From assembly GCF_017094465.1 (NCBI RefSeq), contig NZ_CP064791.1, positions 2,418,001 to 2,482,000 of the forward strand: DNA of 64,000 nucleotides. Reading direction: 5' to 3'. The position numbers and the translations under genes were made by a program. Origin of the DNA: Halapricum desulfuricans (lineage in GTDB: Archaea; Halobacteriota; Halobacteria; Halobacteriales; Haloarculaceae). Positions 14,602 through 32,964 of this stretch are shown here, one piece after another. The notes under the pieces were generated by a model. The model did no database searches. It was not told the DNA's origin and was given only the letters and a program-made list of their open reading frames with translations. The number at the start of each line of letters is the position of its first letter. Positions within the stretch are counted from its first letter, which is position 1.

Positions 14602-17600
14602 TAGTTGTTGCGGCGGACAGCGAGCAGCGCAGCGCCGAGGAGCGCGACGAGCGCAACGGCGATGCCGAAGCCGGGTCCGTCACCGTCACCTTCGTCGGTG
14701 GTGGTGTCAGCCGGCTCGTCAGTCGTCGTGGTCGTCGTGGTCGTCGGCGTGTCCGTCGGCGTGCTCACGGCGGAGTCGGGCACTCGGACAGTCGCGCTGT
14801 CGGTGACCGCGTCGCCGTCAGCGTTGGTGTACGGCGCGTCGGCACCGGGGAAGTCGAACGTCTGGTTGTCGTTGTCGTCCTGGTGGGCCATCGCCGTCAC
14901 CTGGTTGTCACCAGCGGACAGCGTGGTGTCCAGCAGAACGTCAACGTCTTCGACCGTGCCCGGAGCGATGTAATCGGAGCTGCCGATGACGTCACCGTCC
15001 GCGTTGTGGATCACGACGAAGCCACCCTCGGGCAGGTAGGCCTCGGCGACCGTGACGACGTCACCGGTGGAGCTCTGCTGCTGGCGGAAGTCGACCGTGG
15101 CGATCTGCGGTTCCTGGACCGTGTAGGTCTGGCTGTCGTCGTCGATCGTGGCGGTGACTTCGTCGCCGGCGCTCAGGTCGCTGAGATCGAACTCGCCGGC
15201 GAAGGTGCCGTCATCCTGGACCGTCGCGTCGACAGTCTGGACGAGGCCCGGACCGCTGAGCTCGATCGTGACGGTCGTGCCGGCATCAGAAGTGCTGGTA
15301 CCGGAGATGACCTGTCCGTCGGCAGCGTAGAGCTCGAGGTCCTCGTCGAGCTGCGCGTCAGACTCGACCTGGAAGCTCTGGGTCATCGGCTCGAAGCCGG
15401 CGGGTCGGGTCTCGAGCGTGTAGGTCCCGAGTTCGGCATCCGAGGCGATCTCGATGGTCGCGACGCCGTTCTCGTTGGTGGTGAACGAGCCGATCACGTT
15501 GCCGTTCGTGTCGGACAGCGCGATGCTGGCGAGGTTGAGCGGCTCACCGTTGGACTCGCGCGTGACCGTCACGTTGAGCGTGCTGCCCGGCGTGACGGCC
15601 TCGCTACCGAGTGCAAGGTTGACCTGCTTGTTCGAGCGCAGGACGTCGAACGTGATGTCCTCGTTGTCGATCGTCTTGGTGATCGGACCGCTGGCGTTGC
15701 CGCTGCGCAGCGCGATGATTCCGTCACCGGTACCGGTCGGCGTCACCGTGAGGTAGCCGACCTGTCCAACTTCGTACGGGACGTTCGGATACGGCGCCGG
15801 GTTGTCACTGACGAGCGTGTCAGTGTCGTTGATCAGGCTCGTGTCCGTGTTGATCGTGGTCTCGGCGACCGGGTCCGAGGCCGTGTCGATCGCGAAGCTG
15901 AGCGACGGGACCGGGAGGTCGCCGTCGTCAGCCGGGAAGGCCTCGACGCGCAGCGTCTGGGTCACGTCGTTGGCCAGGATCATGTTGCCAGTGTCCTCAG
16001 CGGTCGGCAGCATGGCGCCTGACTGGTCGTAGACCTCGACGCGCGGGAGCTGGCCTTCGGGCGTGTCGTCCCATTCACCGACCGGACCGTTGCTTCCAGG
16101 GGTGAATGCACTGGCGTCCGTGTACGCCTCTAGCGAGTACCTTGAGAGGTACTCGCCGTTGGCGTCGGACTCGTTCGGCTTGATGTCGAACATGACGAGA
16201 CCGGTCTCGTTGTTCAGCGTGACAGTCGAGCCGGCCGCGGAGTTGTTACCCGTAGAGAGGAACTCAACGGTAGCGTCACCGACGCCGCTGTCGATGAGGG
16301 TCAGGTTCGTATCGTCAAGCACGGTACCGTTGATCGGCGTGCCGAGGGCGTCAGTGACCTGTCCCTCGACGCGGTACCAGCGGTCGATACCGATGGTCAT
16401 CGTCTCCACGCCTTCGACAGACGTGAAGTTGTCCGCAAGGTCGTGGTTGACGTCGGACTCGTTGACACCAATGATTTCGGTGTCGATGTTGGGGTTCGCA
16501 GCGTCGAAGTAGCCCGTTTCCTCATCGGTCATGTAGGAGGCGTCGGGCGTCGTGATCCCCAGCTGGAACGTGTCGACGTCGTTGGCGCTGTTGTTGAATC
16601 CGAAGACATCGCCAGGACTCGCTACATCGTTGTTAGCGCTGTCGACGTAGGTGCTGTTCTGGATGTCGTCGATCACGTAGGTGCCGTTGGCCGGGTCGCT
16701 GGCGCTCTCATTGAAGTAGACGCCGTGCGAGTTCCCGTCCGGGCCAACAATTTCGACGAACGGTTCGCCGTCGAGCGATGCGTTGGCAAGGGTGTTCAGC
16801 GAGACGGACGTATTGCCGATTCCTTCGGTCAGGTTGACCGGCTCACCGTCTGCGGTGGTGAGCTCGAAGGCGATCTGTTCGTATTCGACGCCCTTCGTGA
16901 GCGTGAACTGCTCACCGTCTCCAGTGTCCTGGAATCCGCTGTACGTGCTGGTCTGCTCCGGCAGGTATTCGACCTGGAGCGTGTCGTCAGCAGCGAGGTC
17001 GACCGTGCGGACCGCGGCATGGTCGACTTCCTGCTGTTCCAGCGCGTTGTCATGCGGGTTCTGGTCGGCATACTGGTACGCCGTGAAGGTCAGCTGCGAG
17101 ATGTTTTCGGCGAGACCGTCAGAGTTGTCGTCGATCCCGCGCGGACCGAGCGAGATGTTCTCGAAGACGTACTCGCCGTCGTTAATGTTCGAGGTCCGGC
17201 CGTCTGTCTCAGTGTCGAGCGCGTGACCCGACTGAGTCAGACGGACCAGACCGTTGTTGACCGGCGCGAAGTTGTCGTACGGCGCGTTGACGACGGACGT
17301 CAGATCGACGTTCTGGTCACCGAGGATCTCATCGGTTTCGTTACCGTCGATGAGGAACTCCTCGATTTCGAGACCGGACGCGTCCAGCGGGAGGGTAACC
17401 GGATCCTCGCCCTGGACGTAGATCTCGTGAGTGATCTGCTCGTCAGCCTCGTCCGTCGCTGTCGGACGGATCAGGAACGCGTACTCGAGATTGCCGTCAG
17501 TGTCGACATCGGTGTAGTTCGCGTCGAGCACGTTTCCGTTCTGGGCGTCAACCTTGAGGGCGCCAGTATCGTTGGCGTAGACGGTCGCATTAATCTCAGC

Positions 17601-30381: not shown

Positions 30382-31434
30382 TTACGACGACTCTTCGGCG
30401 AGGTCAAGCACGTCGTCGAAAAAGCCGAGCGAGTCGTGTGGTCCGGGGTTCGCTTCGGGATGGTACTGGCGGGTGATGATCCCCAGCTCCTCGTTTTCGA
30501 GGCCTTCGGGCGTGTCGTCGTTGACGTTGATCTGCGTGACGTCGAGATTATCGCCGGGATCGGCCACGGTGTAGCCGTGGTTCTGGGTCGTCATCACGAC
30601 CTGGTCGGTCCGCAGGTCACGGACGGGCTGGTTGACCCCGCGGTGGCCGAACTCCATCTTCTCGGTCTCGCCGCCGAGCGCGCTGGCGACGACCTGCTGA
30701 CCCAGGCAGATCCCCGCGATCGGTACGTCCCCGACGTAGGTGTCGACGACCTCGCCCGCCTGCTCGAAGTTCTCGGGATCGCCGGGTCCGTTCGAGATGA
30801 AGAGCAGATCCGGATCGACCGCCTCGATATCGTCCTCGGTCGCGTCGTAGGGCAGGACGTGCACCTCGGCGTCGCGCTCGACCAGCGACTCGATGATCGA
30901 CCCCTTGGCCCCGCAGTCGACGAGCGCGACCCGCTGGCCGTCGCCGTCCTCGTTGTAGACGACCGGCTCCTCGACGCTGACCTGCGCGCCGATGTCCCGG
31001 TGCTCGGACATGTGCTTGCACTGCTTGAGCTGTTCGAGGGCGTCTTCTTCGGTCGCGTCCGGGCCGGCTGCGATCCCGCATTTCATCGCTCCCTCATCGC
31101 GAATCTCGGTTACGATGTCCCGTGTGTCGAGATGATCGACCGCGGGCACGCCCTCACCGTCAAGCCACTCGGCGACGTCGTCGGTCAACTCGCGGGCGAC
31201 GACGGCGTTGGGCTGGACCCGGTCGGACTCGAAGCGCTCCTCGCGGACCCCGTAGTTGCCGATCAGCGGGTACGAGAACGTCAGGATCTGCTCCTCGTAG
31301 GAGGGATCGGTCAGACTCTCCTCATATCCGGTGTAGGCGGTCGTGAACACCAGCTCCCCGTTGGCTGTTCCGGGAGCGCGTGCGCGCGCCTCGACGATAC
31401 GTTCTCCTTCGAGCGCCACGTAGGCGTCAGTCAT
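30382..31434 (-). CDS. carA: carbamoyl-phosphate synthase small subunit
   Basis: 350 residues. The small-subunit N-terminal domain (GELVFTTAYTGYEESLTDPS) precedes a class I glutamine amidotransferase domain: LLFISNGPGDPE, nucleophile Cys in IAGICLGQQVVASALGG, and His/Glu in RQYHPEANPGPHDS. It supplies ammonia from glutamine to CarB for arginine and pyrimidine synthesis. carB is not in the neighbourhood. A T5 run at 30373-30377 follows on the minus strand. A divergent Lrp-type regulator gene starts 103 bp upstream. Confidence 0.95.
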   Translation of the reverse strand: MTDAYVALEGERIVEARARAPGTANGELVFTTAYTGYEESLTDPSYEEQILTFSYPLIGNYGVREERFESDRVQPNAVVARELTDDVAEWLDGEGVPAVDHLDTRDIVTEIRDEGAMKCGIAAGPDATEEDALEQLKQCKHMSEHRDIGAQVSVEEPVVYNEDGDGQRVALVDCGAKGSIIESLVERDAEVHVLPYDATEDDIEAVDPDLLFISNGPGDPENFEQAGEVVDTYVGDVPIAGICLGQQVVASALGGETEKMEFGHRGVNQPVRDLRTDQVVMTTQNHGYTVADPGDNLDVTQINVNDDTPEGLENEELGIITRQYHPEANPGPHDSLGFFDDVLDLAEESS

Positions 31435-31485: not shown

Positions 31486-31500
31486 TTACGAAATTCGTAA
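31486..31500. promoter_or_regulatory. 15-bp palindrome between carA and the Lrp gene
   Basis: TTACGAA-A-TTCGTAA is a perfect palindrome in the divergent 102-bp spacer, 36 bp before the lrp start and 51 bp before carA. Lrp/AsnC dimers bind 13-15 bp palindromes of this sort and often repress themselves and a divergent neighbour. Assignment is by position. Confidence 0.55.
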
Positions 31501-31536
31501 TACTCAAGTGACGACCACGGGAAGGTACACACCTCG

Positions 31537-31950
31537 ATGGACGAACTGGACCGGGAAATCCTCGGAATCCTCCGTGAGGACGCCCGGACACCGTACACGG
31601 AGATCGCCGACGACGTGGGAACCTCGGAGGGAACCGTCCGGAATCGGGTCGAGCAACTGATCGAGGACGGCGTGATCGAGCGCTTCACCGTCGCGACCCG
31701 GACGGGTAACATCAAGGCGATGATCGAGCTACGCGTGGACGTCAACGTCGACACCACGGGCGTCAGCGAACGCCTGGCGGAGTGGCACGAGGTGGACTTC
31801 GTCTGGCAGGTCGGCGGCGAAGAGGACATCGTGCTCATCGTCGACTGTGCCGATACCGCCAGCGTGAACGACCTCATCACACGGGCCAGAGAGTTAGAAG
31901 AGGTCGTAAACACGAAGACGAGGCTAATCCTCGACGAGCGCGTCGGGTGA
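31537..31950 (+). CDS. Lrp/AsnC-family transcription regulator
   Basis: 137 residues. Helix-turn-helix at about 1-55 (MDELDREILGILREDARTPY, then EGTVRNRVEQLIEDGVI), followed by a RAM/ligand-binding domain (VNVDTTGVSERLAEWHEVDF, VGGEEDIVLIVDCADTA). Such proteins sense amino acids and control their metabolism; divergence from carA points to arginine/glutamine or pyrimidine supply (inference). The final codons, ILDERVG, lie inside a 72-bp tandem duplication that continues past the stop. Confidence 0.9.
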   Translation: MDELDREILGILREDARTPYTEIADDVGTSEGTVRNRVEQLIEDGVIERFTVATRTGNIKAMIELRVDVNVDTTGVSERLAEWHEVDFVWQVGGEEDIVLIVDCADTASVNDLITRARELEEVVNTKTRLILDERVG

Positions 31951-32095
31951 GCGATAGCGAATCAACGCGAAGGTTCGAGGATTCGCCGAGTATGGCTACT
32001 CCTCGACGAGCGCGTCGGGTGAGCGATAGCGAATCAACGCGAAGGTTCGAGGATTCGCCGAGTATGGCTACTCCTCGACGAGCGCGTCGGGTGAG
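31928..32095 (+). repeat. 72-bp tandem duplication covering the end of the lrp gene
   Basis: Units begin at 31928, 32000 and 32072 with TCCTCGACGAGCGCGTCGGG. The first two are full 72-bp copies with no mismatch that I can find; the third breaks off after about 24 bp. The first copy contains the last codons and TGA of the lrp gene. The length is a multiple of three. A recent slipped-strand duplication is the simplest account. Confidence 0.9.
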
Positions 32096-32145
32096 TAGCG
32101 GGACGCCGAACGAGATGAGCGATCCCGAAACAGCGAGTGGCGAGA

Positions 32146-32505
32146 TTACGACCGGACCCACGACGTTACAGCGACAGCGACGGCCACGACGAGCGTGATG
32201 CCGACGAACGTCACAAGGTCGATCCGCGATCCCAGCCCGGCGATATCGACGTAGAGGACGGCCAGCAGTAACACGACCGTGAGGCCAAAGCCAGCAATCC
32301 CATCGAGGAGGCACCGGGCTGTTGGTCCGAAACGACTGTATCGCCAGCCGACCAGCACCGCAGCCCCGGCTCCTGTCAGGAGGCCGACCGGGAGACCGAC
32401 GATAGCCGAGAACTCGTAGGGCAGTGTCTCGATCAGGAAGACTGCGACCAGGAGCGCGACCGTGATGCCGGTCCCGAGCGCGGCCAACGTCGTTCGGGTA
32501 CCCAT
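32146..32505 (-). CDS. small four-helix membrane protein
   Basis: 119 residues from ATG 32505 (MGTRTTLAALGTGITVALLV), with hydrophobic segments at about 5-25, 33-53, 65-85 and 95-115. An upstream extension to 32574 contains SFPRRYTPVAAERSG, which looks noncoding. No motif for transport or catalysis is visible. It is an orphan of a type common in Halobacteria. Confidence 0.6.
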   Translation of the reverse strand: MGTRTTLAALGTGITVALLVAVFLIETLPYEFSAIVGLPVGLLTGAGAAVLVGWRYSRFGPTARCLLDGIAGFGLTVVLLLAVLYVDIAGLGSRIDLVTFVGITLVVAVAVAVTSWVRS

Positions 32506-32586
32506 GCCAGATCGTTCGGCGGCCACGGGGGTATATCTACGGGGAAAGGAGTTCATTTTATATTCGGTCCGCACGGGCGTTCACCT

Positions 32587-32964
32587 ATGCGAGAAACCGT
32601 CAACACCGACGACGCACCGGCCGCGGTCGGGGCCTACAGCCAGGCGACGGAAACGGACGACCTGGTGTTCACCGCGGGTCAGATCCCGCTCACGCCCGAG
32701 GGAGATCTGCTCGATCACGCCGATATCGACGTGCAGACCGAGCAAGCGCTGGAGAACGTCGAAGCCATCCTCGAAGCGGCGGGGTCGAGCATGGACGACG
32801 CCCTGAAGATCACAGTCTACCTGACCGACATCGAGCAGTTCGAGACGATGAACGACGTCTACGAGACGTTCTTCGAGGCGGATCCGCCGGCACGTAGCGC
32901 CGTCGAGGTCGCTTCCCTGCCGAAAGGCGTCGACGTAGAGATTGAGGCTGTCGCAGCGAAGTGA
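32587..32964 (+). CDS. ridA: RidA (YjgF/UK114) enamine/imine deaminase
   Basis: 125 residues, the standard length. GAYSQA, VFTAGQIPLTPEG, QALENVEAILEAAGSS, KITVYLTDIEQF and the active-site Arg in PPARSAVEVASLPKGVDVEI are all present. RidA hydrolyses reactive enamines and imines released by PLP enzymes such as threonine dehydratase. Trimeric cytoplasmic enzyme. A 64-residue membrane-protein gene follows after 1 nt. Confidence 0.93.
   Translation: MRETVNTDDAPAAVGAYSQATETDDLVFTAGQIPLTPEGDLLDHADIDVQTEQALENVEAILEAAGSSMDDALKITVYLTDIEQFETMNDVYETFFEADPPARSAVEVASLPKGVDVEIEAVAAK

Follow-up and report, generated by a model that had tools for sequence, protein, structure and literature searches.

A gene-specific array of hairpin repeats at the 3′ end of lrp in Halapricum desulfuricans and related haloarchaea

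The window analyzed here, i.e., the whole 64-kb stretch of the Halapricum desulfuricans genome introduced above, carries on its plus strand a gene for a 137-aa lrp/asnC-type regulator (lrp, 31537..31950, ATG to TGA; an open reading frame matching Pfam PF13404 and PF01037, HTH_AsnC-type and AsnC_trans_reg), with a carA-like gene (30382-31434; PF00988/PF00117) as its divergent neighbor. We found that the end of lrp is overlapped by a tandem array on the same strand (31922..32095; period 72, 2.4 copies, 99% match), which starts inside the gene, ends beyond its stop codon and, with a Tandem Repeats Finder score of 341 against 53 for the runner-up, is the strongest in the 64-kb window. The preliminary description had reported a 72-bp tandem repeat that begins within the last lrp codons, continues past the stop and shows no mismatch between 31928 and 32095, all of which is borne out; the first copy differs from the second by a single base at 31927, which is A in the gene and C in both later copies. 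A whole-genome search returned three matches to the 72-bp unit, all at the lrp locus, and a chance origin of the array is excluded. Past the first TGA, the frame stays open for 24 codons until the next in-frame TGA, and this happens twice, each unit having its own in-frame TGA. The copy number may be affected by an assembly error; yet arrays of the same design are present in 31 of 140 family genomes (see below).

The array is composed of two elements, termed D and I, all on the plus strand. D0 (31921..31950) comprises the final nine lrp codons and the stop (RLILDERVG*) and, by sequence and hairpin analysis, constitutes the 5′ arm of the first hairpin, the 3′ arm of which, I1 (31965..31987), is the inverted complement of D0 and lies beyond the stop codon (p 0.004 against shuffled spacers; RNA fold z −3.86). 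D1 (31993..32022), which repeats the lrp end for the first time downstream, is identical to D0 at 28/30 positions with an in-register TGA and is followed by its own inverted complement, I2 (32037..32059), recognized by the inverted-arm test, and then by D2 (32065..32094), which copy comparison identifies as the last downstream copy and after which no inverted arm was found. The same order recurs across the family, namely D, a loop, I, a short conserved spacer that is usually GAGTG, and the next D, with a unit spacing of 54-85 bases in 45 of the 51 downstream copies. In the inverted-arm test, which covered the 45/51 units with a spacing of 45-90, the spacers were found to hold the inverse of the upstream D in 43/45 units (p<0.05 against shuffled spacers). 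In the 28 units whose flanking D copies differ at three or more bases, I fits the upstream D better in 22 and the downstream D in none, with six ties; hence, the natural unit is the D-I hairpin, the first of which straddles the lrp stop. These comparisons show, at the level of sequence, that I follows the synonymous changes of its upstream D. The preliminary description had further pointed out that, with a unit length divisible by three, loss of the TGA would extend the protein in frame by repeats. The arithmetic is correct in the window, but the frame is not conserved across the family: only 16 of the 51 unit spacings are multiples of three, close to the proportion of one third that chance would give. 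In-frame extension is therefore not the conserved feature, and a conserved reading frame of the unit is ruled out.

Orthologs of lrp were found in 140 of 146 family genomes (E<=1e-25), and at least one downstream copy of the gene's own end is present in 31 of these 140, spanning 10 of 21 genera and amounting to 51 copies. When tested against shuffled sequences, 27 of 138 lrp ends reached p<=0.005 versus about 0.7 expected; two genomes with fewer than 60 bases downstream of lrp (G095 and G134) were omitted from this test and retained among the 140, although an array could not be shown in them, and a third (G005, Halapricum sp. CBA1109) has merely 86 bases there. The D start displays an arginine codon (AGR) in 28 of the 31 array genomes (raw Fisher p 2e-10), which we considered as a scar marking the array and dropped, because the median p rises to 0.25 once phylogeny is allowed for. 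Two contigs of G095 (C10 and C14; loci L183 and L223) both end within an apparent lrp array, and its lrp sits at a contig end; the assembly of this genome seems to break inside the array, as short-read assemblies do at repeats. No array was found in the remaining 109 of 140 relatives, indicating that it is not essential to lrp, and at least 24 changes of array state are required on a quick lrp tree. Arrays are thus shown, as judged from these genomes, to appear and disappear between close relatives. For instance, G044, whose gene body is for the most part near-identical to that of its close relative G039, seems to have had a G039-type array deleted.

This distribution bears on the age of the repeat. 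In the preliminary description, the identity of the units was taken to mean a recent event, i.e., a plain slippage duplication without history or function, which would agree with the two identical 72-bp units from 31928 on and with the single-copy relative G003 (Halapricum hydrolyticum), where the window's post-array sequence (the flank at 32096..32120, whose start provides the match) directly abuts the lrp stop. What holds of that view is that the units have recently been made or homogenized in this lineage, as their identity implies; a single recent event is not supported, in view of the homologous units at the same site in 10 of the 21 family genera and of the inner inverted arm, whose changes match those of the gene end. 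As a full account, plain slippage is therefore contradicted and, in our estimate, very unlikely, although the latest copy-number step may still be so described. The array is evidently old and changing, and not simply a recent duplication. We found no publication on this lrp array among the open-licence PMC papers listed in literature searches.

A profile built from 12 downstream copies and run over the 146 family genomes recovers units beside lrp in many genera, and the matches listed at 28 bits or above all lie at or just after lrp, except for two at a contig end in G095, whose lrp sits at the end of a different contig; the first listed match elsewhere scores 27.0 bits (G015, 57 kb from lrp). 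On these listed matches, a dispersed mobile element is rejected. They likewise bear on a mobile hairpin acting through single-stranded DNA, such as a terminal-only, IS605-derived PATE or an integron attC-like unit, which we regard as extremely unlikely: the lrp hairpins are comparable in size, conserve a mismatch and fold on one strand, but the listed matches cluster at lrp and a single gene supplies the sequence of the arm. REP/BIME repeats of bacteria are extragenic palindromes that follow genes, occur in tandem, can fold in mRNA 3′ ends and are dispersed over the genome. The lrp units are also palindromic, post-genic and tandem, and could likewise fold at an mRNA 3′ end; unlike REPs, they belong to one gene, whose coding end supplies the 5′ arm. 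In integrons, attC sites are imperfect hairpins folding on one strand, with the boxes R′′/R′ (RYYYAAC/GTTRRRY) at the recombination point. The lrp units resemble them as imperfect tandem hairpins at a gene end that fold on one strand, but differ in that the array lacks gene cassettes and shows the unit-boundary consensus GAGTG/AGGCTGAT without attC boxes; the consensus of the 12 copies, GAATTCGCCGAGTGAGGCTGAT, likewise contains no R′′/R′ boxes. Among the matches listed, none to PF00589, which covers integrases broadly and not IntI specifically, lies near lrp. A paper on archaeal integrons (PMC9668308) makes no mention of Halobacter or haloarchaea. A paper on Haloquadratum (PMC3119063) reports PATEs, short palindromic elements of down to 52 bp, and the D-I units are hairpins and palindromes of this general kind. 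However, PATEs are dispersed and IS605-related, whereas the lrp arm is gene-specific and has no dispersed copies among the listed matches.

The evidence for a conserved fold comes from the first hairpins, 27 of 31 of which were folded, with a mean RNA fold z of −4.45 versus −0.19 in 107 array-free lrp ends. For the covariation alignment, 26 of these 27 were used (G065 folds differently), and a 21-pair structure has 88.3% of its cells paired in an alignment where six or seven short hairpins are gapped in the inner stem. Two-sided changes were observed at 12 of the 21 stem pairs, in 72 cells, a count that overstates independence because the sequences are related; control structures slid by one to three columns yield 3-13 such cells, and 0/500 shuffles reach the observed score. 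The outer stem was recovered unaided by RNAalifold. Furthermore, G.U cells outnumber A.C cells by 37 to 8 overall and by 36 to 3 without the two helix-end pairs, and a T.C mismatch near the stem base is conserved in 19 of the 26 hairpins. This is the covariation of a conserved sense-strand structure, and the excess of G.U over A.C indicates that it is the sense strand that folds, in single-stranded form, most simply as the lrp mRNA. G.T pairs are tolerated in single-stranded DNA too, so that RNA is the simplest reading rather than a proven one. The units continue into GAGTG/AGG with no T run; lacking a U-tract, they are not ordinary intrinsic terminators. In Rfam, the lone match in the 31500-32600 part of the window is sR42, at 15.6 bits against a gathering cut-off of 38 bits, so that no known family is reached. 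Across haloarchaeal genes in general, hairpins spanning the stop codon show no enrichment (2/384 versus 4/313 mid-gene sites; 9/853 versus 13/681).

These structural data bear on a purely mutational origin, in which fold-back template switching made D-I-D once, with slippage and gene conversion subsequently copying and perfecting a functionless palindrome. Such an origin accounts for the D-I-D order, for units that are identical or nearly so within the window, G006 and G018, and for the patchy presence with its many changes on the lrp tree. Nevertheless, the conserved T.C mismatch and an internal loop persist while the flanking pairs change together, a mismatch that palindrome-perfecting would not predict, and the preponderance of G.U over A.C suggests that the folded strand is under selection. 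We accordingly consider a functionless mutational origin rather unlikely.

The downstream D copies carry a record of their own. The in-register stop is kept in 42 of the 51 copies, ten of which use a different stop codon. Among copies that depart from the gene end at three or more positions (23/31 nearest and 26/31 last copies), the nearest ones show 21 residue changes versus 95.5 expected if neutral, or about half of that expectation if the copy alone is free to change, and the last ones 41 versus 115.1; conserved copies are favored in these counts, since copies were detected by similarity. Where an array has more than one copy, the nearest resembles D0 more than the last does in 11 arrays, less in two and equally in three. 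The last D of G049 and that of G039 are identical to the gene ends of the array-free genomes G051/G057 and G068, respectively. Between the close pairs G054/G059 and G042/G055, divergence jumps at the D start, to 7/30 after 3/60 and to 5/30 after 0/60, respectively. The downstream copies are thus shown to diverge mostly synonymously, as would ends of the gene that had been displaced or swapped. The observed pattern would follow whether incoming units pushed older ends downstream or the gene end traded sequence with the array.

Integrated islands displace gene 3′ ends, and this suggests a reading of the array as remnants of site-specific integration: an incoming element or tiny cassette would carry in an lrp 3′ end of its own (D plus I), pushing the native end downstream. 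The second gene end downstream of lrp, differing mostly synonymously, is a feature shared with integrated islands, and the resemblance of the copies to former coding ends, the abrupt divergence at the D start, the terminal copies shared with array-free genomes and the greater closeness of the nearer copies are all consistent with such an origin. However, the first downstream copy starts only 54-146 bp past the D0 start, too close for an island, no island was seen, and no PF00589 integrase lies beside lrp among the matches listed for 39 genomes. Beyond 600 bp, the flanks of the named loci, followed for up to 10 kb, hold no D copy of at least 23/30 except in one MAG. Searches of mobile genomes gave no relevant match: a pattern search of viral contigs returned none, the phage search gave three weak matches attributable to chance, in phages of Arthrobacter and Mycobacterium, and plasmids gave two matches reaching only base 51 of the query, which is the lrp coding end. 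Integration also leaves the D-I covariation unexplained, and we consider it unlikely. Archaeal att sites within coding regions are mentioned in PMC8371274.

A comparable design is displayed by a second gene. In several Haloarcula genomes, the gene encoding a DUF5815 protein (PF19132) has a gene end, an inverted arm that tracks its synonymous variants and further end copies downstream; we found this in 4 of 20 genomes examined (G054, G046, G050 and G048), with D-I loci at L040:3269-3950 (G054, Haloarcula rara), L246, L251 and L255. In a rough survey, a gene's own last 30 bases recur within 250 bases in 11 of 1359 called genes, five of which are lrp, versus 5/1359 for gene starts and 2/773 for mid-gene sites; with an earlier gene caller, which missed the lrp of the window, the corresponding figures are 3 versus 2 versus 3.

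Several further loci were observed in the course of this analysis. A different kind of displaced end is seen where a short hairpin element that carries TTTTTCGCCCACGTTTTT and AAAAAGGTGG is followed by a 39-63-bp copy of the 3′ part of the upstream gene (L241:15408, the same place as L267; L229, 3067, minus strand; L265; and L093:6612, with variants in L229 and L093). The TTTTTCGCCCACGTTTTT/AAAAAGGTGG pattern matches exactly at four places in G054, of which L264 and L266 lack a gene-end copy, and nowhere in G000. The gene with the copied 3′ part in L093 is presumably purH-like. On the minus strand of L076 (Halolamina pelagica; stop at 14748 of the reverse complement), a gene that we take to be methionine sulfoxide reductase-like has a second copy of its end 154 bp downstream, and a hairpin separates the two. 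A 71-bp tandem repeat lies across the end of an open frame, possibly not a gene, in Halolamina rubra (L081:6244-6400). In a halobacterial MAG (L075:4570-6790), approximately 100 bp of the lrp 3′ end, including a 30/30 D copy, recur 2.2 kb downstream, past other open frames. Finally, just past lrp in Halobellus salinus (L046), there is a GGCGAGCGGCTCGG-like stretch that recurs after a differently ended lrp in another genus.

We propose that the array is a gene-specific set of 3′-end hairpins, located 3′ of one lrp ortholog in haloarchaea of the Haloarcula/Halapricum family, that evolves in concert with the coding end and stabilizes or defines the end of the lrp mRNA, an account that we judge to have about an even chance of being right. 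In the lrp mRNA, the first hairpin would span the stop codon and act as a 3′-end stem-loop that stabilizes or defines the end of the message; protecting or defining the mRNA end is the most ordinary role one can posit for a structure so placed in lrp. Units would be gained and lost by recombination or slippage between D copies, and the gene might at times take its final codons from an array copy; by such gain and loss, the coding end and the array would evolve in concert. The anatomy and the covariation are much firmer than this role, and hairpin function does not explain why the last D, although no I follows it, shows coding-like conservation. A bolder proposal, which we think improbable, is that some haloarchaeal genes (lrp and the DUF5815 gene) use a system of gene-end cassettes, in which each hairpin unit carries working final codons and a stop and is added by a single-strand-templated or site-specific process, a fresh unit providing the new coding end and the older ends being pushed into a decaying array.

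For the gene-specific hairpin array that we favor, the final lrp codons are apparently under three constraints, i.e., coding, pairing with an arm that lies beyond the stop and exchange with a noncoding array; if this is true, a coding terminus is evolving in concert with repeats outside the gene. The natural series of one to four hairpin repeats among these haloarchaea offers a handle on how mRNA 3′ ends are defined or protected in archaea. More generally, what is taken for a recent duplication can turn out to be just the most visible part of an old structure.
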